Origin: Streptomyces mangrovisoli
GTDB lineage: Bacteria; Actinomycetota; Actinomycetes; Streptomycetales; Streptomycetaceae
Direction: 5' to 3'
NCBI RefSeq assembly: GCF_000974985.2
Contig: NZ_LAVA02000015.1
Location: forward strand, 124,001 to 188,000
Length of the DNA: 64,000 nucleotides
This document shows positions 18,003 through 33,424 of this stretch, in pieces. The notes below the pieces were generated by a model, which worked only from the letters and a program-made list of their open reading frames with translations, was not told where the DNA came from and searched no databases. The position numbers and the translations under genes are program-made. The stretch's first letter is position 1, and each line of letters starts with the position of its first letter.

Positions 18003-20174
18003 ATGGTCATCACCCTCGAACCGCTGGTCGTCCGGCACACCCTGCGCGTCCCCTCCCCCACCGGCCCCGCCGGCCAAGGCGGCGTCGCGGCCCGGCAGTT
18101 CGACACCGCGCTGATGTCCGCCGGGTTCAAGCTCTCGGCCGACCTGCTGCGGCATCTGTCCGGGCTCTCCGAGGGCGTGGTCGTCGACACCGCCGTACGC
18201 ACCCTGCGCACCGTCCGCGAGATGGCCGGCGACCACGTGCGGCACAACGTGTACTTCGTCGACTTCCCGGCCAACGTGCCCGACACGGCCGACTTCTGGA
18301 TGAAGTGCGTCCTCCAGGCACTCGCCGACGGCACGGTCCGCGACAGTGTCCTCGCGCAGCTGGACGACGGCGTCGTCGACCTGCTCACGCTGCCGTCCTA
18401 CGGCACCTACCAGCACTCCTACGACGACCTGCTCGCCGCGCACGACGAGTTGCTCGCGGCGACCGGCGACCGTACGACGGTGCTGCACCTCGGGGCCGGC
18501 CTCGACGACGAGGTGAGCGCCCTGTACCTGGCGCTCGCGGGCAGCACCACGCCGCTGGGCGAGGAGGGCCTGCGCGACCTGGCCACCCTCGCCGGGCCTT
18601 GTGCGGACGGGCCCCAGCCCGCCGAGATCCCGGTGCGGGAGAACCGCGCGGTGGTCAACCGGGCGCGCCTGGAGGCCGGTTCCGCGCCGCTGCTCGACAC
18701 CGTGACCGATGTGCTGCGCCTGGCCTGCGCGTTGTCGGACGGCGACGTGAGCCTCGCGGAGCCGACCCGGTTCCGCTCGCCGTCCCGCTCCCTGCGCCGC
18801 GCCTTGCTCACGGGCCTGGACTCGGTGGTCGCCGACGCCCCGGCCAAGCTGGCCGACGTCGCGCGGCACCGCGAGGCGTGGAAGCGGCTCGGCGAGCGGA
18901 TCCACCCGCACGACTACCCGGAACTGCCGCACGCCGCCGAGGTGTTCGCCGTGGCCCGCGGCGAGCGGACCGTGCGCTCCCTGGACAGCCTCGCGGAGGA
19001 ACTGCTCGGCCGGGCCGATGTCCCCGGCGCCGTGAAGCTGCTGAAGTCGGCTCCCGGCAAGCTGTTCCGCTCGCTCGACCGACTGCTGCGCGAGGCGCTC
19101 ACGCAGCAGGAGCGGGACGCGGTCGTGGCCGCCGCCGAGGAGGTCCTGCCCGAGGTGGCCGGACGCGTCGTCCTGTCGGTCCGTGAGCATCTGCACAACC
19201 GCGCCGCGAGCAGCGGTGAACGCCGGGTCTTCGTCAACCGCTCGGGCCGCGCGTGGGCCACGGCGGACGACCGCGCACTGGTGCTGCCGCCGGAGCGCGA
19301 GCGGCTGATCGCCGCGCTCGACGCGGAGATCGGCGGGCGGCTCCCGGAGACGGCACGGGTACTGGTCGACCCGGACGTCCTCGACGTGGCGCTGCCGCTC
19401 AGCGGGAAGGCGACGGCGGCCGGTCTCGGCGTGCTGCCGCGCGGCTCCGTCTCACCCGTCGACGGCGAACTGCTGCGCTTCTTCGTCTACTGGAGGCAGA
19501 CCGCCCGCACCACCGACTTCGACCTGTCGGCGCTGATGCTCGGTCCGGGCTACGAGACGATCAACTGGCTCTCCTACACGGCTCTTTCGGACGTGGAGGG
19601 CGAGCACTCGGGCGACATCGTCGACGCGCCCGAGGGCGCCTCGGAGTTCATCAACCTGCGCCTGGGGGCCGTGCGCGGCACCTTCGTCGTGCCGCAGGTC
19701 AACATCTTCGCGGGCGAGTTGTTCGAGGAGGTCGAGGAGTCGTTCTTCGGGTTCATGCTGCGAGAGGCCGAGCAGGGCGGCCGCCCCTTCGAACCGGCCA
19801 CCGTGCGCATGAAGTCGGAGCTGCGCGGGCCGGGGCGGGTGGCGCTGCCACTGGCCTTCCGCCGTGCGGACGACGGCAGTTGGCAGGCGAAGTGGCTGCA
19901 CCTGTATCTGCGGGGCGCGCCCTCGGCGAACCGGGTCGAACGCAACCGGGTGACGGTGGCGATGCTGCTGCGCGCGATCGCCGAGCGGGAGTATCTGACG
20001 GTACGTCATCTCGTCGGGCTGATGGCCGGGCGCGGCACGGCCGTGTCCCTCTGGGACGGCGGGACGACGCCGATCGGCCCGGTCACGTACATCGGCCTGG
20101 AGCGGCCCGAGGGGTTGCACCCGGATTCCCGGATCGTCACTCCCGAAAATCTGCGCGACCTGATCCCCGCCTGA
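18003..20174 (+). CDS. TerD-fold protein related to the MXAN_6230/SCO0854 family
   Basis: This 723-residue cytoplasmic protein has no signal peptide or membrane helix. The first two thirds are mostly helical (LRRALLTGLDSVV, EELLGRADVPGAVKLLKSAPGKLFRSLDRLLREAL) with LSVREHLHNRA near residue 395. From about residue 490 there is a TerD-like beta-sandwich: RTTDFDLSALML, SDVEGEHSGDIVDAPEGASEFINLRL, VVPQVNIFAGELFEEVEESFFGFMLRE and VRMKSELRGPGRVALPLAF. The conserved Asp residues fit the calcium-binding sites of TerD. The layout resembles the C-terminal part of MXAN_6230/SCO0854 proteins but without the RING finger. It precedes the DUF4132-MoxR-VWA cluster by 226 bases in the same direction, recalling known Ter/MoxR/VWA associations. 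Confidence 0.6.
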   Translation: MVITLEPLVVRHTLRVPSPTGPAGQGGVAARQFDTALMSAGFKLSADLLRHLSGLSEGVVVDTAVRTLRTVREMAGDHVRHNVYFVDFPANVPDTADFWMKCVLQALADGTVRDSVLAQLDDGVVDLLTLPSYGTYQHSYDDLLAAHDELLAATGDRTTVLHLGAGLDDEVSALYLALAGSTTPLGEEGLRDLATLAGPCADGPQPAEIPVRENRAVVNRARLEAGSAPLLDTVTDVLRLACALSDGDVSLAEPTRFRSPSRSLRRALLTGLDSVVADAPAKLADVARHREAWKRLGERIHPHDYPELPHAAEVFAVARGERTVRSLDSLAEELLGRADVPGAVKLLKSAPGKLFRSLDRLLREALTQQERDAVVAAAEEVLPEVAGRVVLSVREHLHNRAASSGERRVFVNRSGRAWATADDRALVLPPERERLIAALDAEIGGRLPETARVLVDPDVLDVALPLSGKATAAGLGVLPRGSVSPVDGELLRFFVYWRQTARTTDFDLSALMLGPGYETINWLSYTALSDVEGEHSGDIVDAPEGASEFINLRLGAVRGTFVVPQVNIFAGELFEEVEESFFGFMLREAEQGGRPFEPATVRMKSELRGPGRVALPLAFRRADDGSWQAKWLHLYLRGAPSANRVERNRVTVAMLLRAIAEREYLTVRHLVGLMAGRGTAVSLWDGGTTPIGPVTYIGLERPEGLHPDSRIVTPENLRDLIPA

Positions 20175-20400
20175 CTGCTAGCGTTGCCCGTGGCGAGGCC
20201 ATGAAGGGGCTTCCTTCTCAACCTCCTTGACCCTAGTCCTCTCGCTCTCCTCGCCACCGACCTCGGGCCCGTGGGCGCCACCCGGCACCCCGGGCCCTGG
20301 TCGTGCCCGTCGTGGGCCCGTTTCCCCTGGTCAGCCGTGTTGTCAGTGGCCTGATCTACAGTTCCTGGCACTTGATCAGAACGGTGCTGGGGAGGCACAC
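20175..20400 (+). promoter_or_regulatory. Structured leader region of the DUF4132-MoxR-VWA operon
   Basis: TAGCGT (20179-20184) could be a -10 element. Just after it, GTGGCGAGG (20190-20198) pairs perfectly with CCTCGCCAC (20249-20257), enclosing a smaller hairpin (GAAGG 20203-20207 with CCTTC 20213-20217). Inside lies a nine-codon frame, MKGLPSQPP, starting at 20201, whose end contains CCTCCTT, complementary to the GGGGAGG ribosome-binding site at 20389. A regulated leader is possible but unproven. Confidence 0.35.
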
Positions 20401-21255
20401 ATGGGGTGGGTGTCGGCCGGTGACTACGAAGTCGCCCTCGACGACGGAAAGGTCGTGTGCCGCAACGCCACGGGCCGGCGGCTCAAGTCCGTTCCGGCGA
20501 AGCTGGCGGACGATCCCGCCGTGCGGGGCCTGCGGCAGCTGGCCGAGTGGCTGGAGCGGCACGAGCGGCAGTGCCTGACCGACGTGGAGCGCTGGATGGT
20601 GCGCTCGCTGCCGGTTCCGCTCGCGGTGCTCGCCCGGGTCTGGCCCGACCCCGCGTGGCAGTCGGCCCTGCGCGACCTCGTCGTCACCGGAGAGGACGGC
20701 GAGGTCGCGGGCTTCCTGCGGGACGCCGACCCCGAGCGCGGGCTCGGCCTGGTCGACCTCGACGGCGACACCGTGCGGATCAGCCCCGCGCTCGTGCGCC
20801 TCCCGCACCCGGTGCTCCTCGACGACCTGGAGGAACTGCGCGAGTTCGCGGTGGAACTCGGCGTCGAGCAGCGCGCCCAGCAGCTCTTCCGCGAGGTGTG
20901 GCACCGCCCGGCGGGCACCGACGCGGAGGCGACCGAGGTCGAGGAGTACGCGGGCGGCGCGTTCAAGGAGCTGCGCTTCCTGCACGGCCGGACCACCCAG
21001 CTCGGCTACCGGGTCCGCGGCGGCCACGCCGTCTGCCCGGTCCTGGAGGACGGCCGCGCCGTCGAGGCCCGCGTCTGGATCGGCGACTACGACAGCTACG
21101 ACAGCGCCGAGACCGGCTCCCTGGTGTGGACCGACACCGCGGGCCGGACGCTGAAGCTCGGCCGGATCGGGCCCGTCGCCTGGTCGGAGGGCATGCGCAT
21201 GGCGGCCGCGCTGTACGCGGGCCGCGACATCGAGGACGAGGAGCAGGCGGCATGA
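20401..21255 (+). CDS. DUF4132-domain protein
   Basis: This 284-residue protein starts at ATG with GGGGAGG five bases upstream. It is a compact DUF4132 module: MGWVSAGDYEVALDDGKVVCRNATGRRLKSVPAKL at the start, then LTDVERWMVRSLPVPLAVLARVW, GLGLVDLDGDTVRISPALVRLPHPVLLDD and ELGVEQRAQQLFREVWHRP, followed by KELRFLHGRTTQLGYRVRGG and a C-terminal LGRIGPVAWSEGMR. In E. coli the domain is part of YehI (with a WGR domain), encoded next to MoxR, VWA and SWIM genes. Here it is a stand-alone first gene of the operon, and its stop overlaps the next start (ATGA). Biochemical function of the domain is unknown. Confidence 0.75.
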   Translation: MGWVSAGDYEVALDDGKVVCRNATGRRLKSVPAKLADDPAVRGLRQLAEWLERHERQCLTDVERWMVRSLPVPLAVLARVWPDPAWQSALRDLVVTGEDGEVAGFLRDADPERGLGLVDLDGDTVRISPALVRLPHPVLLDDLEELREFAVELGVEQRAQQLFREVWHRPAGTDAEATEVEEYAGGAFKELRFLHGRTTQLGYRVRGGHAVCPVLEDGRAVEARVWIGDYDSYDSAETGSLVWTDTAGRTLKLGRIGPVAWSEGMRMAAALYAGRDIEDEEQAA

Positions 21256-24200
21256 CGTACGACGACACCACCACGGCCACCCTGCTCGACGCGGGCGCGG
21301 TCCTGCCGGCCGGCACGACCGCGCGCGAGGACGCCGACGCGCTCACCGCCCGCACCTACACCCACCCCGCCCTGGACGGGCGGCGGATCGTGCGGCTGGT
21401 ACCGGGCACGCTCGGCGAGGCCGAGGACCTCGCCCTGGACTTCCTGGGCCTGGCCCGCGAGCCGGAGGCGCCGCAGGTCGGCCAGGTCCGCAAGGAGACC
21501 CTCGGCTTCCCCGCCTGGGCGCTGGTCAACGACCCGGCCAACGGCCACCACGCGCTGGCCCTGGTGCAGGACATCGAGCGGCTGGCCCGGCAGGCCAAGT
21601 CCCGCCCCGGCACCGCGAAGGAGGGCTTCGAGGCGCTCGGCGAGCGGCTCGGGCGGACCGTGCCGCACTTCCTGCCCACGTTCTACGAGCAGGCGGCCCG
21701 GGTCTTCCTCCAGCACGAGAACGCCACGTACGCCGCCGCGTTCTTCGGCCGCGCCCGCGCCGCGGAGCGGGTGCACGCGCTCGCCGTCGACGAGGAGCGG
21801 CAGCGCGCGGTGTTCCTGGAGTTCGCGTTCGCCGGGGCGCTCACCGTCAAGGCGCTCAAGGAGCATGTGCGGGACCTGACCCGGCGGCTCGACGCGGCCA
21901 CGGCGTGGGCGCAGTTCCGGCAGCTGATCGTGGAGCGCTGCGCGGCCGGCATGGCGCCGTACGCGTCGCTGCCGCAGGATGCCCGCGGGCTGATCAAGGC
22001 CGCCGGTCTCGACCGGACCGAGGAGGAGTGCGGTCTCGTCGCCGACCTGATCGGCTCGCCCGCCGCGGTCCGCGCCCCGGCCTCCTTCTGGACGGCCTAC
22101 CGTGCCGTGCTGCCCGTCCTCGCCGAGCGCCGGCCGGAGGTGCGGGTCCGGCTGCTGGAGTTCATGCCGGCCGCTCTGGGCCGCCGTACCGAGGACGACG
22201 AGTTCTGGCTGGCCGTGCTCGCGGAGACGGGCGCGGACCGGCTGCTCACCGGGGAGGACGGTTCGGTCACCGCTGTGGAGGGCGGTCGCGCCGCCGTCGA
22301 CGCGGCGGAGTGGCTCGGCCGCTGGTCCACCCACCGCAAGCACGGCAACTCGGTCGGCGACCGCTCCCCCGCCACCCTCGCTCTCGTCGCGCGGATGGCG
22401 TCCCGGCTGCGCGCCGACGGCCGCCCCGTCGACCTCTTCAACGGCCGCTGGTACGCCGGGGCCGACCTGGACCTGCTGGACCTGTGCGCCTCGGAGGGTG
22501 TTCCGCTCGCCGTGCCGGACGCCGGCAAGGAGGTGCGGATCCCGCTCGACCGCTGGCTGCGCGACAAGGGCGAGGGCCGTCGCGACCTGACGGCCACGGC
22601 CGCCGACGTCCGGCTGCGCCCGTTGCTGCACCTGGCCCTCGGACACCTCGGCGACCAGCGGACGGCGGCGGGGCTGCTCGACCGGATCGCCGCGCACCCG
22701 GTCCTCTCCGACGTGCTGCGCGAGTGGCTGGGCGACGCGGCCGACGCGTTCGTGCGCGCGTCCGGCCTGCCGGGCGCCCAGGCGGCCCTTCAGCGGCTGC
22801 GGCCCTACCGGCCCGTCGCCGCCCAGGTGAACCCGGAGGCCGTCGCGCGGGTGGCCGCCCACCCGCTGGCACCGCTGCTCGGCCGGACCCTGCGCGCCGG
22901 CATCCCCGACGAACTGGGCTGGCCCGCGCTCGACGAGGCGTTGCGGCTGCTCGCACCGGAGACCCGCAAGAACCAGGACAACTCCCTGACCGTCGCCGAC
23001 GCGTGGCCCGCGCTGATCCTGGCGCGCGGCCGCAAGGCGGTCGTCGTCGGCCCCGACGCGGTGCTCCTCGAACACGACCTGCGCGTGCCCGTCGACCTGA
23101 ACCGCTGGCAGCGCCCGCACTTCCGCTGGGCCGACGGCGAGCTGCTGGTCATCTGGCACCGGGACGGCAAGCAGCACGGCTACTGGTCGAACCGGCCCAC
23201 GGAGGTGTTCACGCTCGGCGGGGAGCAGGTCCCGCAGTGGTACGGCGGCGGAACCGCCGACCCCTCCGTCCCGCTGCCGGACGGCGGCCGCGCCACCGGC
23301 GGACGCACCCTGCACGCGGGCGACACCGTCCTGCCGCCCTCCCGGCCCGTCCTCGGCGACGGCACCGGCCTGTGGCGCCAGGGCCGGCAGGGCCGCAGCC
23401 AGGTGTGGCTCGAGTACGACCCGGTGACCGGCACCCACGGCCGGGCCTCGCTGCCGGAGTTCCTGCGCTCCGCCGTCCGGGACGACGCGACCCTGCTCCA
23501 GGACCAGTGCGAGGTGCTGCCGCTCCAGCCCGGCCTGGAATCCAGCCCCTTCGGCACCGACGGTGTCGTGCTGGGCCGCTGGGTGCGCCACGAGGGCCAG
23601 GGCGCGGACGCACTGCGGACCGCCGGCACGCCCGACGGCCGGACGGTCACCCTGGAGGCCGCTCCGGGCCGGGCGCCCGGCCTGCCGCTCGGCGCGCTGC
23701 GCCTGCCCGGCGGCGCCGAGCCGGTCGCCGTCCGATACCACCGCCAGGTCGCCCTGTTCGCGCCGGGCGAGCGCGCCTCGGGCGGCGAACTGGGCCGGGT
23801 CACCCTCGGCGAGCGGGGCGGCGAGTTCGCCGCCGGCACGCAGCTGGTGCCGCCGCTCCCCTTCTGGCACGCGCTGCGGCCCCGCGACGAGAAGGCCTCG
23901 GCCGTGCTGCGCGACCTGGACGACGACCGGGTGGGCGAGGTGCTCCTGGCAACCGCCCAGGCCTTGGCCGAGCGGCAGGCGCTGCTGGTCCGGGACCCCT
24001 CGGACAAGGGCGGCTCGGGAAGCGGCACGGCAGGTCCCGCCGGCGGGTCGGTCGCCGCCTCCTCGGTCGCTGCCTCCGCGATTGCCGCCGCCGCGATCGC
24101 CGCCGCCCGGTCGGCCCTCGCCGCCTCCGGCGTGGCCGTCGCCACGACGGGGTCGGCGACCGGAGCCACGACCGGATCGTCGACCGGTGGCCCGAACGGT

Positions 24201-26501
24201 TCGGGGGCCGGTGGCACGACCGGTTCGGGGGCCGGTGCCTCCGCCTCCGGGCAGGCGGCGGTGCCGCCCGCCGACGAGGTCGCCCGGCACGCCGTGGCAC
24301 TCGCCCTGCCCACGCTGACCGACGACCGGCTGCTCACCGGCGTGAGCGCCCTCGTGCGCGCGACGCTGCGGCTCGTCGAGTCGGCCGCGGCGTTCATCGC
24401 GCCCGTGGTCGAGCGGCCGCGGGCGGAACGCCGCCGTACCGAGGGCATGTTCGCCGACTTCAGCCCGAAGCACGGAGACGACGGCACCCTGCGCCTGGCC
24501 ACGGCCGGGATCGCCGAGCAGTTCGGCTGGTGGGGCGACAGCACGCAGTGGAGCGCGCAGCGGCAGATCCGCGCGGTGAACCACGTGCTGTCCGGCCTCC
24601 CGGCCGACGGCAAGCCGCTGCCCGCCAAGACCCGCGAGGCCACCCCCGGTGACGGCTGGAGCAGCGACACGCACACGATCCCCGACATCGGCACGGTGAT
24701 GTGGCCGACCGTCCTGAAGGCGCTGCGCCCGCTGGTGTACAGGGCCGCCACCCCGACCGTCCCGGAGGAGCAGCGGGAGGCGCTGCTGCTGCTGTGCGAG
24801 GCGATCGCCGAAGGGCCGCTCGCCGCGCCGTCCGGCGCGCTGCGCGAGGCGGTGCTGACCGAGCCGCAGAGCAAACTGGAGCGCGCCGGTCAGGTGCTGC
24901 GGCGCAACGGCCGCACCGTGGTCGTGCTCGGCTGCGAGTCCATCGACACCGAGCGCGGACTGGTCAACTGGCGCGCTCTCGACCACGATCCGACCGGTGC
25001 CTTCGGCGCGGTCGACCGGTTCACCCTGAAGCGGGAGACCCGCTACACGCCCGCCTTCCCGGAGGGCGGCCTCGCCGCCGCGACGCGCCTGATCCGGGAC
25101 AAGGGCGCCGCGCCGGCCCGGCCCGAAGCACCCGACGCGCTCGCCGCGGAGACCGGCGGCGGGCTCGGCCCCGCCCAGTCCGCCCTGCTGCTCGCCGGGC
25201 GGCCGCAGCAGCCCGGCCACGAGGAGAGCGCCGCCCTCGGCCTGAAGCCCGGTCAGCGGGACCTCGCCGGCCGCCTGCTCGGCGCGCTGGGCCAGGACCA
25301 CCGGGTCGCCCTGGTCGAGGCCCTGCTGCCGCGGGACCCCGCCGATCTGTGGACCGTGGGCCCGGACATCCGCGCCGCGGGGCAGGTGTGGGCCGAACGG
25401 CTCGGCGGGCTGGTCCGGCTCCCCGAGGACGTCGCCGCCGACCTGCCGGGTGTCTCCGCGGAGGCGGCCGAGGCCGTGCTCAACCCCGCGCGCACCCCGT
25501 GGCTGAGCAGGACCACGGTCCAGCGGCTCGCCAAGGCGGGCACCGGCGTCGGTCTGCTCCCCGAGGACCCGCAGGCGATCCCCACGGCGTCGAACCTGAT
25601 CAGCGCCGTCGACGCGCTCGCGCAGCTCGCCTACGACCTGCCGCACGGCCACCCGCTCCGGGCCGCTCTGCCCGCCGGGCTCACCGCGCTGCGCCGGCGG
25701 ATGGCCGACGAGGGACTGCTGCTCGAACTCGGCATGGGCTGGTCGGAGAAGGGCAGGCCCACCTCGGTGGAGCTGCGCACGGCGTACGGCCTGCCCGAGT
25801 CCGGTGGGGCCGACGCCGACGGTCTGACCCGGGTGGGCGAGGCCTTGGCGCTGAGCCCCTGGTACCACGGCGCGGAGGCCGTGCTGCTGCGCCCGGCCGC
25901 CCTCACCGGCCCGGACGACGCGGTGTTCGGACTGCTGGAGGGGCTCGTCGGGACCGGCCGGTCGGCCGCCCTGCGGGCGCTGCGCACGGTCCTCGCGGAC
26001 GACCTGATGCAGGCGCTCACCGCGGGAGCCGAGGGCGACCCCGGCCATGCGCAGGACCCCGCCCGCAGCGTGCCGTCCCTGGTGGCCGAGGTGGCGCGGG
26101 CACACGGCCTGGGCGAGGACGCGGCCGCGCTGTATCTGCAGCTGCTCGCCCTGCCCGACCCGACGGACCGCAACTGCGTCCGCTGGACCGGCTGGAAGCC
26201 CGCCCGCATGAAGAAGGCCCGCGCCGAACTCGCGGCGACCGGCCTGGTCGTCGAGGCGAAGCGGGCGCGGGCCGGGCGCACGCTGTTCCTGCCGTGCGGC
26301 TGGTACGACCTCAAGGCCCCGGCGCTGCCGCTGGAGATCTGGAAGGACGGCCTCTACCCGATCCCCCCACGCGGCCGCGTGGTACCGCTGCTGCCGGTCG
26401 CCGACCTGTTCGCCCGCGCCTGGACCCGCGCGAGCACCGGGGACGCCCCGGCCTACGAAGAACTCACCACCCGTGCCACCCGGAAGGGCCGCCGCCGATG
26501 A
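21252..26501 (+). CDS. Giant 1,749-residue protein of unknown function in the MoxR-VWA cluster
   Basis: Start and stop are fixed by four-base ATGA overlaps with both neighbours. The protein has no signal peptide or membrane helix. The N-terminal third is helical and repeat-like (AARVFLQHENATYAAAFFGRARAAERV; FEALGERLGRTVPHFLPTFYEQ), followed by a beta-rich middle with many RxxLHAGDTVLP, WYGGGTADPSVPLPDG and WLEYDPVTGTHGRASLPEFL segments suggesting propeller-like blades. Residues about 916-1003 are a low-complexity Ala/Ser/Gly/Thr linker. The C-terminal third is helical again, with WSEKGRPTSVELRTAYGLP, WTGWKPARMKKARAEL and a basic end. No nuclease, protease or NTPase motif was recognised. Its coupling to the MoxR gene suggests it is the substrate or scaffold of that ATPase. 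Confidence 0.7.
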   Translation: MTYDDTTTATLLDAGAVLPAGTTAREDADALTARTYTHPALDGRRIVRLVPGTLGEAEDLALDFLGLAREPEAPQVGQVRKETLGFPAWALVNDPANGHHALALVQDIERLARQAKSRPGTAKEGFEALGERLGRTVPHFLPTFYEQAARVFLQHENATYAAAFFGRARAAERVHALAVDEERQRAVFLEFAFAGALTVKALKEHVRDLTRRLDAATAWAQFRQLIVERCAAGMAPYASLPQDARGLIKAAGLDRTEEECGLVADLIGSPAAVRAPASFWTAYRAVLPVLAERRPEVRVRLLEFMPAALGRRTEDDEFWLAVLAETGADRLLTGEDGSVTAVEGGRAAVDAAEWLGRWSTHRKHGNSVGDRSPATLALVARMASRLRADGRPVDLFNGRWYAGADLDLLDLCASEGVPLAVPDAGKEVRIPLDRWLRDKGEGRRDLTATAADVRLRPLLHLALGHLGDQRTAAGLLDRIAAHPVLSDVLREWLGDAADAFVRASGLPGAQAALQRLRPYRPVAAQVNPEAVARVAAHPLAPLLGRTLRAGIPDELGWPALDEALRLLAPETRKNQDNSLTVADAWPALILARGRKAVVVGPDAVLLEHDLRVPVDLNRWQRPHFRWADGELLVIWHRDGKQHGYWSNRPTEVFTLGGEQVPQWYGGGTADPSVPLPDGGRATGGRTLHAGDTVLPPSRPVLGDGTGLWRQGRQGRSQVWLEYDPVTGTHGRASLPEFLRSAVRDDATLLQDQCEVLPLQPGLESSPFGTDGVVLGRWVRHEGQGADALRTAGTPDGRTVTLEAAPGRAPGLPLGALRLPGGAEPVAVRYHRQVALFAPGERASGGELGRVTLGERGGEFAAGTQLVPPLPFWHALRPRDEKASAVLRDLDDDRVGEVLLATAQALAERQALLVRDPSDKGGSGSGTAGPAGGSVAASSVAASAIAAAAIAAARSALAASGVAVATTGSATGATTGSSTGGPNGSGAGGTTGSGAGASASGQAAVPPADEVARHAVALALPTLTDDRLLTGVSALVRATLRLVESAAAFIAPVVERPRAERRRTEGMFADFSPKHGDDGTLRLATAGIAEQFGWWGDSTQWSAQRQIRAVNHVLSGLPADGKPLPAKTREATPGDGWSSDTHTIPDIGTVMWPTVLKALRPLVYRAATPTVPEEQREALLLLCEAIAEGPLAAPSGALREAVLTEPQSKLERAGQVLRRNGRTVVVLGCESIDTERGLVNWRALDHDPTGAFGAVDRFTLKRETRYTPAFPEGGLAAATRLIRDKGAAPARPEAPDALAAETGGGLGPAQSALLLAGRPQQPGHEESAALGLKPGQRDLAGRLLGALGQDHRVALVEALLPRDPADLWTVGPDIRAAGQVWAERLGGLVRLPEDVAADLPGVSAEAAEAVLNPARTPWLSRTTVQRLAKAGTGVGLLPEDPQAIPTASNLISAVDALAQLAYDLPHGHPLRAALPAGLTALRRRMADEGLLLELGMGWSEKGRPTSVELRTAYGLPESGGADADGLTRVGEALALSPWYHGAEAVLLRPAALTGPDDAVFGLLEGLVGTGRSAALRALRTVLADDLMQALTAGAEGDPGHAQDPARSVPSLVAEVARAHGLGEDAAALYLQLLALPDPTDRNCVRWTGWKPARMKKARAELAATGLVVEAKRARAGRTLFLPCGWYDLKAPALPLEIWKDGLYPIPPRGRVVPLLPVADLFARAWTRASTGDAPAYEELTTRATRKGRRR

Positions 26502-27673
26502 CCACCACACTCCCCGCCGCCACCGACACGGCCCGCCAGATCGTCCCCCCGGAGGAGCGGTACGCCACCGAACTGGCCTTCCTCGCCGCCTACGACGACG
26601 GGCCGAGGCCGCCCGCCTGGCGGCTCACCCCGCGTGCCGTGGTCACGTTCGTCATGGGCAGCGACGGCCAGGCGCTGCGCCTTCCCGACGACGCCGTGGT
26701 GCCCGACGGAGTGCCGCGCCGCCTGCGGGTGGAGGGCAAGTTCGTCGGCGACCGGGCCCTGGTGGAGCGCTGTGTCGTCACGCTCGCCGGGGAGCGCGGG
26801 CTGCTGCTCGTGGGCGAGCCCGGCACCGCCAAGTCGATGCTCTCGGAACTGCTGGCCGCGGCCGTGTGCGGCACCAGCGGCCTGGTCGTGCAGGGCACGG
26901 CCGGCACGACCGAGGACCAGCTCAAGTACGGCTGGAACTATGCCCTGTTGCTGGCCCAGGGGCCGAGCGGCAAGGCGCTGGTGCCGTCGCCGGTCCTCAC
27001 CGCGATGAGCCGCGGCGCCGTCGCCCGGGTCGAGGAGGTCACCCGCTGCCTGCCCGAGGTGCAGGACTCACTGGTGTCGCTGCTCTCCGAGCGACGCATC
27101 GCGGTACCCGAACTGGCCGCCACCGAGGGCGCGTTGGCGCACGCGGCGCCCGGGTTCACGCTGATCGCGACGGCCAACCTGCGGGACAAGGGCGTCTCCG
27201 AGATGTCCGCCGCGCTCAAGCGGCGCTTCAACTTCGAGACGGTCGGCCCCATTCCGGACCTCGACGCCGAGACGGCGCTGGTGCGCAGCCAGGCACGGGC
27301 GTCGGTCGAGCGGGCCGGGGCGCCGTTCCAGGTCGACGACGCCGTGCTGGAGGCCCTGGTGACCGCCTTCCGCGATCTTCGGGAGGGCCGGTCCGCCGAG
27401 GGCTGGGAGGTCGAGCGGCCGTCGACCGTGATGAGCACGGCGGAGGCGGTCTCGGTGGCGGGCGCGCTGGGCCTCGCGGCGGCGTACTTCCCGGGCGACC
27501 GCGACGTGCTCGGGCTGCTGCCCGGCCATCTGCTCGGCGTGGTCCGCAAGGACGACCCCGCCGACGCGGCCCGGCTGCGCGGCTACTGGGACGGTCCGGT
27601 ACGGCGCCGTGCCGAGCAGGGCTCCGCCACCTGGCGCACCCTGTGGGACCTGCGCACGGTGCTGGAGGGCTGA
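26498..27673 (+). CDS. MoxR-family AAA+ ATPase (YehL-like)
   Basis: This 391-residue protein overlaps the giant gene by four bases. The AAA+ core starts near residue 80 with Walker A GEPGTAKS (106-113). The Walker B region reads GAVARVEEVTRCLPEVQDSLVSLLSERR (about 173-200); the usual Asp-Glu pair is replaced by Val-Glu-Glu, leaving E179/E180 as the candidate catalytic acid. Sensor 1 is LIATANLRDKGVSEMSAALKRRFNF (222-246) with the arginine finger region. The C-terminal lid includes RPSTVMSTAEAVSVAGA. MoxR ATPases remodel or load metal into client proteins, working with VWA partners, and a VWA gene follows directly. The 70-residue N-terminal extension resembles YehL-type members. Confidence 0.88.
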   Translation: MTTTLPAATDTARQIVPPEERYATELAFLAAYDDGPRPPAWRLTPRAVVTFVMGSDGQALRLPDDAVVPDGVPRRLRVEGKFVGDRALVERCVVTLAGERGLLLVGEPGTAKSMLSELLAAAVCGTSGLVVQGTAGTTEDQLKYGWNYALLLAQGPSGKALVPSPVLTAMSRGAVARVEEVTRCLPEVQDSLVSLLSERRIAVPELAATEGALAHAAPGFTLIATANLRDKGVSEMSAALKRRFNFETVGPIPDLDAETALVRSQARASVERAGAPFQVDDAVLEALVTAFRDLREGRSAEGWEVERPSTVMSTAEAVSVAGALGLAAAYFPGDRDVLGLLPGHLLGVVRKDDPADAARLRGYWDGPVRRRAEQGSATWRTLWDLRTVLEG

Positions 27674-27677
27674 CGCG

Positions 27678-30600
27678 GTGTCCCTCGCCCCCGACCCCGG
27701 CGCCCACGGCCCCGGCGCGCCCGACCCCGGATCGCGCGTCACCGGCCTCGGCGCCCGCTCCGCCGTCCCGGACCCGCTCTCCGCCACCCCCGACGAGGCG
27801 CTGGCCGCCCTCACCGATCCGGCCGGTCCGTTCCTCATCGGCGTACGGCACCACGCGCCCTCGCTGGCCGCCGCCGTACCGGCGCTGCTGGAGGAGGCGA
27901 AGCCCGATGTGCTGCTGGTCGAGCTGCCTGCCGAGATGCAGGACTGGCTGCCCTGGCTCGCCCATGAGGAGACCCGGGCCCCGGTCGCGCTGGCCGCGGC
28001 CCCGGCCGGCGGGGTCGGCGGCCCGGCCTTCTACCCGTTCGCCGATTTCTCGCCCGAACTCGCCGCGGTGCGCTGGGCGGCCCGGCACGGAGTGCCGGTC
28101 GTCGCCTGCGATCTGCCGCTGGCGGACCGGGCCTGGGCGGAGGGACGGCAGGAGGCGGATCCCGGGGCCGCGGAGACCGGGGCCGCCGAGGCGGACCGCG
28201 CGGAGGGGGTCTCGGCGATCGCCCCGATCGGTCCGGGGCTCGCCTCCGCCCTGCGGTCTCGGCTGACCGGGCGGCCGGGGGACGACCTCTGGGACCGGCT
28301 CGTCGAGGCCACCGCGCCCGGCTCCCCGCCCGCGGCACTGCGCCGCGCGGCCCTGCTCACGGGGTGGGCGCTGCGCGCGGACGCGGTCGCCTCCGGCGGG
28401 GTGCCGCGCCTGGACCTGCGCCGGGAGCGGTGGATGCGGTCGTGCCTGGCGGCCGCGACCGCCGGGGGCGAGCGTGCGGCGCTGGTCGTGGGCGCCTTCC
28501 ACGCCCCGGCGCTGACCGCGGTGCGGGACGAGCCTGCCGTCTCCCCCCGGGAGGGCGCGGAGGAATCGCGCTGGACGACCTCGCTGATCCCGTACACGTA
28601 CGCCCTGCTGGACGAGCGGTCGGGATATCCGGCGGGCATCCGGGACCCGGAGTGGCAGCACCACGTGCTGCGGGCCGCGGGCGATCCGGCCGCGCTGGAG
28701 GAGGCGTTGACGCGGGCCGCGGTCGAGGTGACCGCGGCGCTGCGGACGCTCGGACATCCGTCGGGGCCCGCGGACGCGCGGGAGATCGTCCGGCTCGCCG
28801 GAGATCTGGCGCGGCTGCGTGGGCTGCCCGCGGCGGGGCGCGGCGAACTGGTCGAGGCGGTGCAGACGGTTCTCACGCAGGGCGAGCCCTACGGCCGTGG
28901 TCGCGCCGTGGCACGGGCGATGGAGCGGGTGCTCGTCGGCAGCCGGGCCGGCCGCCCCGCACCCGGCGCCCCGCGCAGCGGCCTCGCGCCCGCGGTCGAG
29001 GCCGAGTTGGCGGAGCTGGGCCTGCCGGGTCCGGGCGTGGACGGCCCGGGAACGGGCGGCTCACGCGCCGACTCGTCCGGCAGGGGCGGCGGTTCCGCGC
29101 GGGATCTGCGGCTCGATCCGCTCCGTTCCGACCTCGACCGCCGCCGTGAACTGCTCCTGCGCCGGCTGACGGTGTGCGGGGTGCCCTACGGCGAGCCCAA
29201 GGAGGTCGCCGGAACGGGCGGCGCCGACGCGCTGACCGCACGCTGGGAGGTGCACTGGACGCCCGCCACGGCGGCCATGCTGAACGCGGCGGGGGTCCGC
29301 GGCGTCACGCCGGCCCAGGCCGCCGAGGGCGTCCTGCGTGAGCGGCGGCGCACGGAGACGGACGAGGGCGGACCTACGGCCGCCCAGGCGCTGGAGGGTC
29401 TGCGGCAGGCCGCGGAGTGCGGTCTCGACGCGCTGGCGGACGAGCGGCTCGACGACCTCGCCGAGGTGCTGCCCGGCTCCGGCACGCTGCCCGAACTCCT
29501 CGCCGGGCTGGGGCTGTCGGACCGGGTGCGGGCCGGGCACATCCCGGGGCTCGGCGCCGACGACGGCCGCACCGCGCGGGCCGCCGCCGTGAGCGAGCTG
29601 CTCACCGCCGCCGCGGTGCGCCAGGTCGACGGGCTCACCGGCTCCGACGACCCGGCCGACGCGCGGGCGCTGGTCGCGCTCGCCCACCGCGCCGACGCCC
29701 TGGGCGGCGTCCGGCTCGCCGACGCGCTCGCCCGGCTGGCGGCCGACGGCTCGCCGTTGATGCGCGGCGCCGCCGGTGCCGTACGCGTGCTGCTGGGGCA
29801 GGAAGCCGCGCGTGAGCTCGGGGACCGGGTCGCCTCCTGGGTCGACGCGGCGACCGGTCCGGAGTCCCGGTCGGCGCTCACCGCCCGGCTCACCGGGGTG
29901 CTGACGGCGGCGGGGCCGCTGCTCGAGGCGGCTCCGGCCGCGCTGGAGCCGCTGCTCGACCGGGTCGCGCTGCTGCCGGACCGAGGCTTCCTCGACCGGC
30001 TGCCCGCGCTGCGCGGCGGATTCGACACGCTGAGCCCGGCGGCCCGCGAACGCCTGCTGGGCACCGTGGAGGAACGTCTCGGGGAGACGCGCCTGGCCGA
30101 CACCGGCGACGTCGATCCGGTGGCGCTCGCCGTCTGGACGTCGGCGGATCTCGCGGCGCGGTCGGCGCTGCGGGCGTTCGGGCTGCTGCCCGCGGAACTC
30201 GGCACCGGGGCGGCGGAGTCGACGGAGGTCACGGGGGGCGCTCCCACCGCGGAGGGCGCGGACACCCCTTCGACGCCGGTCACGTCGGGGAGCACGGCCG
30301 CGGACGCGGTGCCCGGCGGTGGGATGCGGCTGGCGGCCGGGGACCGCTGGCGGCTCGTGCTCGGGCGGCGCAGGGATCAACTGCCGCCGCCCGCGGCGGC
30401 GTTGGCGACGGCGCTCGACGAGTTGTACGGCAGTGGACGGGGCGAGGGAAGCCGCGGCGAGCTGGGCGGCCGGGGCGGCGGACGGGAGGCGCCCTACCCG
30501 TCGGCGCGGGAGTGGTCGCAGGAGCTCGCGGCCCTGTTCGGGCCCGGCGTACGGGAGGAGGTGCTCGCGGCCGCGGCGGCGTCGGGCCGGACCGACGTCC

Positions 30601-31427
30601 TCTCCGAGCTGGACGCGGAGGGCGTACGGCCGTCCGTCGACCTGCTGCGGACGGTGCTGCGGCACGCGGGCGGCCTGCCCGAGGCGCGGCTCGCGGCGCT
30701 GCGGCCCCTGGTGCGCCGCCTGGTGGAGGCGCTCACCCGGCAGCTGGCGACCCGGCTGCGGCCCGCGCTGCACGGCGCGGTGCTGCCCCGGCCCAGCAGG
30801 CGCGCGGGCGGCGGGCTCGACCTGCCCCGCACCCTGCGGGCCAACCTGGCGACGGCGCGGCGCGCTCCGGACGGCACGGTGCAGGTCGTCCCCGAGCGTC
30901 CGGTCTTCCGCAGCCGGGCGCGGCGGGCCGCCGAGTGGCGGCTGGTCCTGGTCACCGACGTGTCGGGGTCCATGGAGGCGTCCACCATCTGGGCGGCGCT
31001 GACGGCCTCGGTGCTGGCCGGGGTGCCCACCCTGTCCACGCACTTCCTGGCCTTCTCCACGGAGGTCATCGACCTCACCGAGCACGTCGGCGATCCGCTG
31101 TCGCTGCTGCTGGAGGTCAGCGTCGGCGGTGGCACGCACATCGCGGCGGGGCTGCGGCACGCGCGCGAGCTGGTGACCGTGCCGTCCCGCACGCTCGTCG
31201 TGGTGATCAGCGACTTCGAGGAGGGCTATCCGGTCGGAGGGCTGCTCGCGGAGGTGCGGGCGCTGGTCGGGGCGGGCTGCCATGTGCTCGGCTGCGCCAG
31301 CCTCGACGACACGGGGCGGCCCCGCTACTCGACCGGTGTCGCGGGGCAGCTGGTCGCCGCGGGGATGCCGGTCGCCGCCCTCAGTCCGCTCGAACTCGCC
31401 CGCTGGGTAGGGGAGAAGATCGCATGA
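27678..31427 (+). CDS. DUF5682-VWA fusion protein (YehM-YehP-like)
   Basis: This 1,249-residue protein starts at GTG 27678, five bases after the MoxR stop, with GGAGGG nine bases upstream. Residues about 45-880 are DUF5682: the signature GVRHHAPSLAAAVPALLEEAKPDVLLVELPAE (about 55-86) is followed by WTTSLIPYTYALLDERSGYPAGIRDPEWQ and a long helical region (TVCGVPYGEP, LRQAAECGLDALADERLDDLAEVLPGSGTLPELL). Residues about 1085-1249 are a von Willebrand A domain with an intact MIDAS: DVSGSM (1094-1099), a conserved Thr in GGGTHIAAGLRHA and Asp in VVVISDFEEGYP. In E. coli the two parts are separate proteins (YehM, YehP). Fusion implies they act together, with the VWA domain docking the MoxR ATPase. 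Confidence 0.82.
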   Translation: MSLAPDPGAHGPGAPDPGSRVTGLGARSAVPDPLSATPDEALAALTDPAGPFLIGVRHHAPSLAAAVPALLEEAKPDVLLVELPAEMQDWLPWLAHEETRAPVALAAAPAGGVGGPAFYPFADFSPELAAVRWAARHGVPVVACDLPLADRAWAEGRQEADPGAAETGAAEADRAEGVSAIAPIGPGLASALRSRLTGRPGDDLWDRLVEATAPGSPPAALRRAALLTGWALRADAVASGGVPRLDLRRERWMRSCLAAATAGGERAALVVGAFHAPALTAVRDEPAVSPREGAEESRWTTSLIPYTYALLDERSGYPAGIRDPEWQHHVLRAAGDPAALEEALTRAAVEVTAALRTLGHPSGPADAREIVRLAGDLARLRGLPAAGRGELVEAVQTVLTQGEPYGRGRAVARAMERVLVGSRAGRPAPGAPRSGLAPAVEAELAELGLPGPGVDGPGTGGSRADSSGRGGGSARDLRLDPLRSDLDRRRELLLRRLTVCGVPYGEPKEVAGTGGADALTARWEVHWTPATAAMLNAAGVRGVTPAQAAEGVLRERRRTETDEGGPTAAQALEGLRQAAECGLDALADERLDDLAEVLPGSGTLPELLAGLGLSDRVRAGHIPGLGADDGRTARAAAVSELLTAAAVRQVDGLTGSDDPADARALVALAHRADALGGVRLADALARLAADGSPLMRGAAGAVRVLLGQEAARELGDRVASWVDAATGPESRSALTARLTGVLTAAGPLLEAAPAALEPLLDRVALLPDRGFLDRLPALRGGFDTLSPAARERLLGTVEERLGETRLADTGDVDPVALAVWTSADLAARSALRAFGLLPAELGTGAAESTEVTGGAPTAEGADTPSTPVTSGSTAADAVPGGGMRLAAGDRWRLVLGRRRDQLPPPAAALATALDELYGSGRGEGSRGELGGRGGGREAPYPSAREWSQELAALFGPGVREEVLAAAAASGRTDVLSELDAEGVRPSVDLLRTVLRHAGGLPEARLAALRPLVRRLVEALTRQLATRLRPALHGAVLPRPSRRAGGGLDLPRTLRANLATARRAPDGTVQVVPERPVFRSRARRAAEWRLVLVTDVSGSMEASTIWAALTASVLAGVPTLSTHFLAFSTEVIDLTEHVGDPLSLLLEVSVGGGTHIAAGLRHARELVTVPSRTLVVVISDFEEGYPVGGLLAEVRALVGAGCHVLGCASLDDTGRPRYSTGVAGQLVAAGMPVAALSPLELARWVGEKIA

Positions 31428-33367
31428 GTCCGGACCTGCCTCCGGTCGACCCGTCCGTGACCGCCGAACTCGTCGCGGCCCTCTCCCCGCGGCTGCGCAA
31501 GCGGCTCGACGCGGGCATCGCCAAGCTGGCTGACCGCCCGGCCGTACGGGACGGCGACACCGTGCGCGTCGCCGTGGACGACACCACGCACGTCGAACTG
31601 CACGCACCGGGCGGCGCGGTGACCGGTGCGGCCGCCGTGCGCTGCGGCTGTCTGCTGGCCCCGGACTGTCTGCACCGGGCGGCGGCGGCGTCGCTGGCCC
31701 CGGTGCACGAACCGGCCCCGGAGGCGGCCGGGGAAGCGGAGGCGGCCGCGGTGGCGGAGACCACTGCGGCGGAGGCCCCGGCGGGCGAGGAGGCCACTGC
31801 GGCCGGGGAGGCGCCGTCCCCTCCCCCGCACCCCGAGCCCGAGCCCGGCCTCGGCCCCGATCCCGGCCCCGGGCCCGAGGCCCCGACCCCCGACCAGTGC
31901 GCCGCCGCGCGGGCCGTGCGCGACGCCGTCGTGGCCGTGCTGGAGGCGGGCGTGGACGGGGCCGGGGGCGTGGTGCAGGCGGAGTTGCTGCGGGCGGCGC
32001 ACGCGGCGCGGATCGCCGGACTCCCGCGGCTCGCCACGGCGGCGGTCGCCGTGGTGACCGGGGTGCGCGCGGCCCGCTCCGCCGACCCGGCGTACCGCCT
32101 CGCCGACCTCGGCGCGGCGCTCCGCGAGACCCTGCTGACCGCGCACCTGCTGCCGCGGGCGACGGGCGCGGAGTTCGCGGCGCTGCGCGGCACCGCCCGC
32201 CGCCCGTACACGCCGGACGGCTCGCTGCGCCTGTACGGCCTCTTCACCGAGCCGGTGCTCACCACGACCGGGTACGCCGGCGCGGTCACCTGGACCGCGG
32301 ACGCCGAGGGCCGCCTGCTGACCGTCTCGGACGTGGCGCCGGGCGGCGCCGGGCGGGCCGTGGGCGCGGCGGGCCGGGCCGTGCGGATCGGCGACACGGC
32401 GCTGACGCACCGCGAGTTGTCGCGGGCGGGGCTCGCCGTGTCGGGGGCGACGGTCTCCCCGACGGGCCGGCTGGGCGCGGGTGCCGGGGTGCGGGCCGTA
32501 CGTGCCGCCGGGGCGGCCTGGACCGCCGAACCGCTGGACCGGCTGTGGGCCGAGCCCGTCGCCGAGCAGGTCGGCCGGGCGCTCGCGGGCGAACGCGACC
32601 TGCTCTTCCTCGACCTCACCCTCACCGGCACGGTGCGGGAGGCGGCGGGCGACTGCCTGGTCGCGGAGTGCGGCGGCCGTACGGTGCGGCTGGCCGTCGC
32701 GCACGACGACCCGGCGCTGCCGTACCGCGACAATCTGCGGCTGCTGGCCGCGGCCCCCGGCACGCGGCTGCGGGTGGTCGGCCGGCTCGCCCTGGCACCG
32801 CACCCGCGCGTGCTGCTGCTGGCGTCGAGCCTCCCGGGTGCGGCGGAGGGCCATGTCGACCTGGGGACCGACCGGTTGCAACGCGCGGACCTCGCCGTCG
32901 CCGCGGCCTCGCCCGCCCCGGCCATGGGCCTGCCCGAGGCGGACGAGGCTCCGGTGCACGTGCTGAGCCGCCGGGTGCTGCAAGGGGTCGCGGGCGGCCG
33001 TCCCGTGCTGGCGGCGCCCGGTGAGGGCGGCCGGGCCGGTGAGCGCAACGACAGCGACGGCCGGCGGCTGCGCCGGGCCGGTCTGACGACGGCGGCCGAA
33101 CTGCTGCGGGAGCTCGTCGCCGCGGCGGCGGACCGTTCACGGGACGCCTTCGGCCGGCTGCTCCCGGCCGACGCGGACCGGTTCGGCCGCGCCTGGCTGG
33201 CCGCCGCCTGCTACACGGCCGAGGTGGAACGCGCGCTGTGCGCGGCGGCGTGGGGCGCGGACATACGCGACGCGGACGCGCGGCACGGGGACACCCCTGA
33301 CGCGGACGTACGGGGCGCCGACGTACGGGACGCCGACGTACCGGACGGGACTCCGGTGGTGCGCTGA
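31424..33367 (+). CDS. SWIM zinc-finger protein (YehQ-like)
   Basis: This 647-residue protein overlaps the VWA gene by four bases (ATGA). A SWIM-type finger lies at residues 74-84: CGCLLAPDCLH, giving CxC-x5-CxH, preceded by VRVAVDDTTHVELHAPGG. A Pro/Ala/Glu-rich linker (about 95-150) leads to a large alpha/beta region with RPYTPDGSLRLYGLFTEPVLTTTGYAG and ERDLLFLDLTLTGTVREAAGDCLVAECGGRTVRLAVAH. The last 35 residues repeat A-D-[IVA]-R-x steps (ADIRDADARHGD, ADVRGADVRDADVPDG), resembling a short pentapeptide-repeat coil. SWIM fingers bind nucleic acid or protein. This is the last gene before a strong bidirectional terminator. Confidence 0.78.
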   Translation: MSPDLPPVDPSVTAELVAALSPRLRKRLDAGIAKLADRPAVRDGDTVRVAVDDTTHVELHAPGGAVTGAAAVRCGCLLAPDCLHRAAAASLAPVHEPAPEAAGEAEAAAVAETTAAEAPAGEEATAAGEAPSPPPHPEPEPGLGPDPGPGPEAPTPDQCAAARAVRDAVVAVLEAGVDGAGGVVQAELLRAAHAARIAGLPRLATAAVAVVTGVRAARSADPAYRLADLGAALRETLLTAHLLPRATGAEFAALRGTARRPYTPDGSLRLYGLFTEPVLTTTGYAGAVTWTADAEGRLLTVSDVAPGGAGRAVGAAGRAVRIGDTALTHRELSRAGLAVSGATVSPTGRLGAGAGVRAVRAAGAAWTAEPLDRLWAEPVAEQVGRALAGERDLLFLDLTLTGTVREAAGDCLVAECGGRTVRLAVAHDDPALPYRDNLRLLAAAPGTRLRVVGRLALAPHPRVLLLASSLPGAAEGHVDLGTDRLQRADLAVAAASPAPAMGLPEADEAPVHVLSRRVLQGVAGGRPVLAAPGEGGRAGERNDSDGRRLRRAGLTTAAELLRELVAAAADRSRDAFGRLLPADADRFGRAWLAAACYTAEVERALCAAAWGADIRDADARHGDTPDADVRGADVRDADVPDGTPVVR

Positions 33368-33372
33368 GCGCG

Positions 33373-33407
33373 CGGTGGGCCCGCCCGGATCGCGGGCGGG
33401 CCCACCG
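33373..33407. terminator. Bidirectional terminator closing the MoxR-VWA operon
   Basis: CGGTGGGCCCGCCCG (33373-33387) and CGGGCGGGCCCACCG (33393-33407) form a perfect 15-base stem with a 5-base loop. It lies in the 57-base gap between the SWIM gene and the convergent phytase-like gene. Confidence 0.85.
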
Positions 33408-33424
33408 ATGACGCGCGAGGGGCG

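Follow-up and report, generated by a model that had tools for sequence, protein, structure and literature searches.

A five-gene MoxR-VWA operon of Streptomyces mangrovisoli behind a PafBC-type promoter motif, probably induced by DNA damage

The closest described relatives of the system analysed here are the yehI-yehL-yehM-yehP-yehQ genes of Escherichia coli and the MoxR-vWA-beta-propeller ternary systems (Kaur et al. 2020, PMC7159879). Most of the component domains, and the E. coli relative as a gene set, are already known; in the open literature that we searched, the term DUF5682 is absent and no function was found for the Yeh-type MoxR-VWA set. We studied a window of 64,000 nucleotides from Streptomyces mangrovisoli (positions 124,001 to 188,000 of contig NZ_LAVA02000015.1), in which five genes packed head-to-tail at 20401-33367 encode a DUF4132 protein, a giant protein of 1,749 residues, a MoxR ATPase, a DUF5682 protein fused to a VWA domain and a SWIM protein. 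We consider it rather likely that this operon, standing behind a PafBC-type RecA-independent DNA-damage promoter (RecA-NDp) motif, encodes a Yeh-family MoxR-VWA machine, probably damage-induced, with a predicted role in remodelling, and perhaps cleaving, proteins at damaged DNA. The new elements are a DNA-damage motif common to four gene architectures, a giant protein with a predicted propeller, and a TraB-like reading of DUF5682.

The promoter motif and its regulon

In mycobacteria, reviews and structures assign the RecA-independent DNA-damage promoter to PafBC. Its consensus has been printed as tTGTCRgtg - 8 nt - TannnT (nt, nucleotides; PMC5656591), and the M. tuberculosis form as TGTC(GG|AG|AC)N10TAN3T (PMC8151990). 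A matching sequence is found 61 bases upstream of the DUF4132 start codon, on the proper strand and at the proper distance. The motif, the genes behind it and the flanking features are the following:

20340..20362, + strand: PafBC/RecA-NDp motif, TTGTCAGTG-N8-TACAGT, matching the printed consensus (PMC5656591, PMC8151990)
20401..21255, + strand: DUF4132 protein, 284 residues (PF13569, 103 bits)
21252..26501, + strand: giant protein, 1,749 residues (gene call; conserved operon member)
26498..27673, + strand: MoxR AAA+ ATPase of the YehL type, 391 residues (Pfam AAA_5, 128 bits; 46% to YehL, best segment)
27678..31427, + strand: DUF5682 fused to VWA_CoxE, 1,249 residues (PF18934, 728 bits; PF05762, 220 bits)
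31424..33367, + strand: SWIM protein, YehQ relative, 647 residues (hhalign to YehQ; finger motif)
33368..33414, + strand: strong terminator-like hairpin, 47 bases (-44.8 kcal/mol, z -7.2)
18003..20174, + strand: neighbour gene, MXAN_6230/SCO0854-like, outside the operon (family model below cut-off)

The motif was then compared among related operons. The strict tTGTCRgtg form is exact in 12 of 30 operons and carries one or two substitutions in the remaining 18, and the M. tuberculosis form lies within 200 bases upstream of the first gene in 29 of the 30, in such a way that these 29 are the sole matches in 1.49 million strand-bases, both strands of the 30 sequences included; with the reversed pattern, 1 match was found. 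A second set, taken from further genomes of the same genus, showed the M. tuberculosis form before 22 of 23 operons, with no match for the reversed control, even though the DUF4132 protein of 10 of these 23 is just 54-60% identical to that of the window. The two sets are not fully independent, as at least one genome is probably present in both (L013, L141). The operons lacking the consensus (L004 and L153) both have near-matches containing TGTCCG, and a Streptomyces plasmid with a window-type operon carries the exact motif. By contrast, the M. tuberculosis form was found in none of nine distant relatives of the giant, a kind of protein that stands alone in the six of six loci examined. The motif thus tracks the machine rather than the giant alone. 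Between the motif and the start codon (20363-20400) there is also a block, CACTTGATCA, that by eye recurs in many loci of the main clade. It may belong to the leader, or serve as a second operator.

In the window's own genome, the strict motif gave 31 sites against 0 for the reversed control, and 29 of the 30 sites examined are intergenic according to our own gene calls. As judged from a scan of 20 downstream proteins, plus three more, the motif stands before genes for the repair proteins UvrA, UvrB, O6-methylguanine methyltransferase (MGMT), a UvrD helicase, an HhH-GPD glycosylase, uracil-DNA glycosylase (UDG, ung), RuvC, RecA and a RadA-like protein. A SWIM protein and a WGR protein are also encoded downstream of the motif, together with non-repair proteins (isochorismatase, YjbR, SUKH, DUF4253, ribosomal S6, PhoH, a methyltransferase, a HAD hydrolase, an MFS transporter and a MazG-like protein). 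At locus L091 (G000:C181, near 25183), a PafBC-type motif precedes a protein that matches both a WGR domain and beta-propellers, and this pairing is reminiscent of two elements of the MoxR-VWA loci, WGR/DUF4132 and the propeller. On contig C177, two WYL genes separated by 1 kb are a candidate PafB-PafC pair. Summed over 12 genomes with DUF5682, there are 262 motif sites and 2 control sites; a single genome of this group, G204, has no motif site.

An initial search mentioned in PMC9380542 suggested that conservation of the motif does not extend to S. venezuelae, and a RecA-NDp promoter of S. coelicolor is described in two papers on SCO6735. In contrast with the S. venezuelae remark, the 31 sites amount to a well-defined predicted RecA-NDp regulon in a Streptomyces-like genome, and the census bears on an open point, the motif having been reported as unfound in one Streptomyces species (PMC9380542). 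Since the same promoter motif stands before repair genes, DNA damage is the likely trigger of the operon, and at the level of sequence such a regulation is well supported. The original prediction had proposed a stress-response or conflict machine; the motif data favour the first part and sharpen it to a probable response to DNA damage, while the conflict system is kept as a rival and weighed below.

Extent and conservation of the operon

Gene calls and Pfam matches bear out the predicted packing of the five genes, with three junctions being overlaps of 4 bases and the MoxR/DUF5682 junction a gap of 4 bases. The hairpin at 33368-33414 begins immediately 3' of the SWIM stop codon, and is a plausible end of the operon.

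In order to compare the block among species, genomes were scanned with the giant, which gave 29 loci, all from Streptomyces. The gene order recurs in 28 of them as far as each stretch reaches (those of L006, L019 and L024 stop early), so that the proposal of a single conserved gene block held. DUF4132 and MoxR flank the giant in all 29 loci, DUF5682-VWA is present in 27 and SWIM in 25. At L023, neither VWA nor SWIM was found though the stretch continues, and the giant and MoxR matches are partial and overlapping; some frames were short in the gene calls (the giant in L006 and L016, VWA in L016 and L025, SWIM in L016). It had also been proposed to look for homologues of the giant standing mostly away from MoxR and VWA genes. 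In a partial run of this comparison, MoxR follows the giant in 29 of 29 loci and in six of six further window-type loci that were retrieved complete (G204 included), and the distant giants (1,311-1,619 residues; L173-L178) stand alone, having no MoxR, VWA or SWIM neighbours, in the six of six examined.

The upstream limit of the unit was set by the gene at 18003-20174, which had been described as a TerD-fold gene and as a component of the system. Neither description was borne out: the protein has no Pfam match at E<=0.1, TerD included, and reaches 321 bits against the MXAN_6230/SCO0854 family, whose cut-off is 600, the best-matching stretch corresponding to positions 386-732 of the 842-position model. 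The gene was found in 0 of 29 related Streptomyces loci, and the promoter motif sits between it and the operon. By eye, the start of the protein has no cysteine-rich RING region. Because of its absence from the 29 loci, its score below the family cut-off and the lack of a TerD match, the unit is taken to start at 20401. These data also bear on the possibility that the genes form a general stress operon with a Ter component, for which the position of a MXAN_6230/SCO0854-family gene directly upstream on the same strand would speak; with this neighbour missing from all related loci, no TerD match and a conserved motif in between, the Ter component was rejected and we find the reading scarcely credible.

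Domains of the five proteins and a proposed mechanism

The features recognised or predicted within the proteins are the following:

22899..23915, + strand: predicted beta-propeller in the giant, about residues 550-888 (structure model)
26073..26288, + strand: winged-helix-like C-terminal segment of the giant, about residues 1608-1679 (model secondary structure only)
27807..28673, + strand: predicted TraB/TIKI-like N-terminal domain of DUF5682 (motifs G-x-x-H, E, R-E-x-x-M, G-A-x-H)
30744..31409, + strand: VWA domain with intact metal-ion-dependent adhesion site (DVSGSM, GGGT, SDFEE) (Pfam; motif check)
31643..31675, + strand: SWIM finger C-G-C-x5-C-L-H, residues 74-84 (motif check)

The usual Walker B motif ends in DE. 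The MoxR protein of the operon has a Walker A (GEPGTAKS), a Walker B ending in VEE, a sensor 1 and an arginine finger, and the EE pair is present in 41 of 42 listed MoxR proteins, YehL included, the L023 protein being partial. The MoxR proteins of the canonical SWIM-DUF5691 loci, described below, are missing from this list, having escaped the search patterns; only that of L101 was seen, and it has EE. No Pfam match, Pfam SWIM included, was found for the SWIM protein, and its finger (C-x-C-x5-C-x-H) has a spacing equal to that of E. coli YehQ, to which it aligns with an hhalign probability of 88 over 61 columns. The DUF5682-VWA chain matches YehM with a BLASTP E-value of 3e-20.

The giant has no match in Pfam, NCBIfam or PADLOC, and some of its homologues carry the name "DNA-binding protein" in source records. 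Structure models, which cover residues beyond the N-terminal 549, suggest that it contains a beta-propeller and that its C-terminal segment may be winged-helix-like. The giant was also considered as a split or rearranged relative of YehI, DUF5691, DUF4132 or RING0854, and this gained no support, the profile comparisons, of low sensitivity, being empty; for YehI this null is weak evidence, because the same comparison missed the DUF4132-YehI relation that Pfam detects. In genome G341, a lone giant relative (L176, 10354-15213, - strand) begins with a fused DUF4132 domain (34% over 267 residues), and this fusion supports that DUF4132 and the giant are partners.

Two motifs G-x-x-H plus a glutamate characterise the TIKI/TraB family. 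The N-terminal domain of DUF5682 has the same motif order as E. coli YbaP (G-x-x-H, E, R-N/E-x-x-M/W, G-A-x-H), and differs from the family in lying under the Pfam cut-off (TraB_PrgY_gumN, 12.2 versus 26.8 bits, E=0.16). The order was found in 118 of 120 database DUF5682 proteins and in 19 of 26 from the neighbourhoods, some of the seven misses being partial gene calls. Its background was one of 346 other neighbourhood proteins (a protein of 935 residues at L120), 0 of 240 giants and 0 of 2400 shuffles, for a pattern that was itself drawn from YbaP and DUF5682. Searched against solved structures, a DUF5682 profile gave a single meaningless hit (E=1.9), the window's domain alone none, and a YbaP query returned no TraB chain; TraB was found in one of 149 Actinomycetota genomes. 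With Foldseek, the matches of the whole DUF5682 model were swamped by helical repeats, and the best structural matches of the N-terminal domain were two entries of a single chain of Tetrahymena complex IV. This complex is reported to hold a TraB-family protein, for which the matched chain is a candidate. Altogether, the motifs and models suggest a TraB/TIKI-like fold, for which a hydrolase activity is predicted only.

The activity and the client of the machine can be put forward conditionally. According to PMC11804915, PafBC is activated in mycobacteria by single-stranded DNA at lesions, and in the same way lesions in the present host would activate PafBC and switch the operon on. A client would then be unfolded by hexamers of MoxR, for which VWA would serve as adaptor, and the machine might be brought to this client on DNA by the giant (through its propeller and winged-helix-like end), DUF4132 and the SWIM finger. 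The TraB-like domain, in the same chain as VWA, could act as a hydrolase on the delivered chain. If so, this family would add a new class of ATP-driven proteases to DNA repair. A more specific version, which we regard as speculative and unlikely, is a bacterial machine for the repair of DNA-protein crosslinks: a damage-induced MoxR-VWA unfoldase whose adaptor chain includes a metalloprotease of the TraB/TIKI type (DUF5682) and which SWIM, winged-helix, WGR or DUF4132 modules position on DNA. It would be a functional counterpart of the p97-SPRTN pathway of eukaryotes, present in several phyla under different damage regulators (PafBC, LexA and DdrO).

The VWA domain is of the CoxE type, and CoxD/CoxE are a precedent for a chaperone of cofactor or metal insertion, in which MoxR and VWA would mature one metalloenzyme. 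The E. coli name MolR, which stems from molybdate work (PMC8533742), points in the same direction. Against this, no metalloenzyme was recognised in the operon, the promoter motif groups it with repair genes, and moeA and moeB are named as unchanged in DdrO-depleted cells (PMC8533742), so we hold such a role to be very unlikely.

Other architectures and phyla

The family survey, in which 31 stretches were labelled, revealed four arrangements. In type (a), a canonical SWIM-DUF5691 unit diverges from MoxR-DUF5682-VWA, and in all nine same-genus loci the motif toward SWIM is exact and that toward MoxR has one mismatch; such a locus is also present in the window's genome (contig C119, L092), with a divergent PafBC motif pair and, by eye, sucC/sucD-like genes beside it. 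One genome can therefore hold two versions of the machine. Type (b) is that of the window, and a motif with at most one mismatch was found in five of five further same-genus loci, the G204 locus having none. Type (c) keeps the gene order of E. coli (YehI-L-M-P-Q); its YehI begins with a WGR domain, and the motif is present in the one locus available. Type (d) consists of an unrecognised protein, VWA, MoxR and a protein of 925-984 residues (L119-L122), with the motif in three of four loci; the last protein was matched to DUF5682 at 97-105 bits by the genome search, whereas the whole-protein scan of the L120 one gave no such match, and it is this L120 protein that fits the TraB-like pattern. The presence of the motif before four architectures turns the vague label of chaperone into a directly testable role.

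Outside this group, the motif is mostly missing from loci of other actinobacterial classes, and signs of damage control by other regulators were looked for. In E. coli, the yeh genes have upstream of them yehF, which is listed in a table of SOS genes with a log2 change of up to 1.14, about 2-fold (PMC11002266). A CTG-N10-CAG site occurs 9 bases before its start (6450-6465, L002); the pattern is lax, with many matches in L002, and the site is notable for its place and the SOS table only. No E. coli-type LexA box (CTGT-N8-ACAG) was found in the yeh locus. In D. radiodurans, depletion of DdrO strongly raises the expression of an operon that includes DUF4132 (PMC8533742). On a Deinococcus plasmid, the genes SWIM-DUF5691-MoxR-DUF5682-VWA have a DdrO-like palindrome upstream, and in Deinococcus taeanensis the sequence TTACGCCAGAAACATAA, about 20 bases before the SWIM gene, has one mismatch to a DdrO-type palindrome pattern, which is suggestive only. 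No convincing LexA box was found in the rhizobial, Methylosinus, Iodobacter and Hymenobacter loci, and for this reason DNA-damage control is not shown to be universal.

The distribution of the family speaks for an anti-phage or anti-plasmid MoxR-VWA conflict system, whose control by damage would follow from the exposure of single-stranded DNA also by phage infection. Of 81 Streptomyces genomes, 36 have a match to the giant, a count that includes weak hits to distant relatives, and DUF5682 is present in 21 of 296 Actinomycetota genomes, a patchy spread; versions of the machine are found on plasmids (L123-L131) of Proteobacteria, Deinococcota, Bacteroidota and Actinomycetota, in one case next to restriction genes and transposases, and MoxR-VWA pairs and propellers take part in published conflict systems (PMC7159879). 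On the other hand, no toxic effector is recognisable among the five proteins, and the sole match of eight proteins scanned with PADLOC 2.0.0 was that of MoxR to the REase_II model, at E=0.033, so that none of the members did better than E=0.03. Moreover, nine of nine same-genus genomes of the DUF5682 search have the canonical SWIM-DUF5691 version, which adjoins, in the window's genome, the sucC/sucD-like genes. A conflict role is thus possible, if doubtful, and a machine acting on proteins at damaged DNA is the reading that we prefer.

Comparison with known systems

The ternary systems of Kaur et al. (2020, PMC7159879) share with the operon a MoxR, a VWA and a predicted beta-propeller, their third component also having propeller regions. 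They differ in that the MoxR of the operon is under the bpMoxR cut-off (PF20030, 20.5 versus 27 bits), its VWA chain is fused to DUF5682 and has no propeller, and the DUF4132 and SWIM parts are extra.

The canonical locus on C119 has in common with the operon MoxR, DUF5682, VWA, a SWIM protein and PafBC motifs, no profile similarity being detected between the two SWIM proteins. It differs in its divergent layout, its two motifs and the presence of DUF5691 in place of DUF4132 and the giant.

The relation to the E. coli yehI-yehL-yehM-yehP-yehQ locus (with yehF and yehH), already proposed in the original prediction, is confirmed by the relatedness to YehL, YehM, YehP and YehQ: both have a YehL-type MoxR, DUF5682, VWA_CoxE, a SWIM protein of the YehQ kind and a DUF4132 domain, in the order MoxR-DUF5682-VWA-SWIM. 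Of the differences proposed at the same time, the Ter neighbour falls, being present in none of the 29 loci, and the giant stands, as comparisons of low sensitivity found no relation to YehI, DUF4132 or DUF5691. Whereas the DUF4132 domain occupies positions 954-1138 of the 1210 of YehI, it is a separate gene for 284 residues in the window, where DUF5682 and VWA are fused and the giant, with its predicted propeller, stands in place of the N-terminal 950 residues of YehI.

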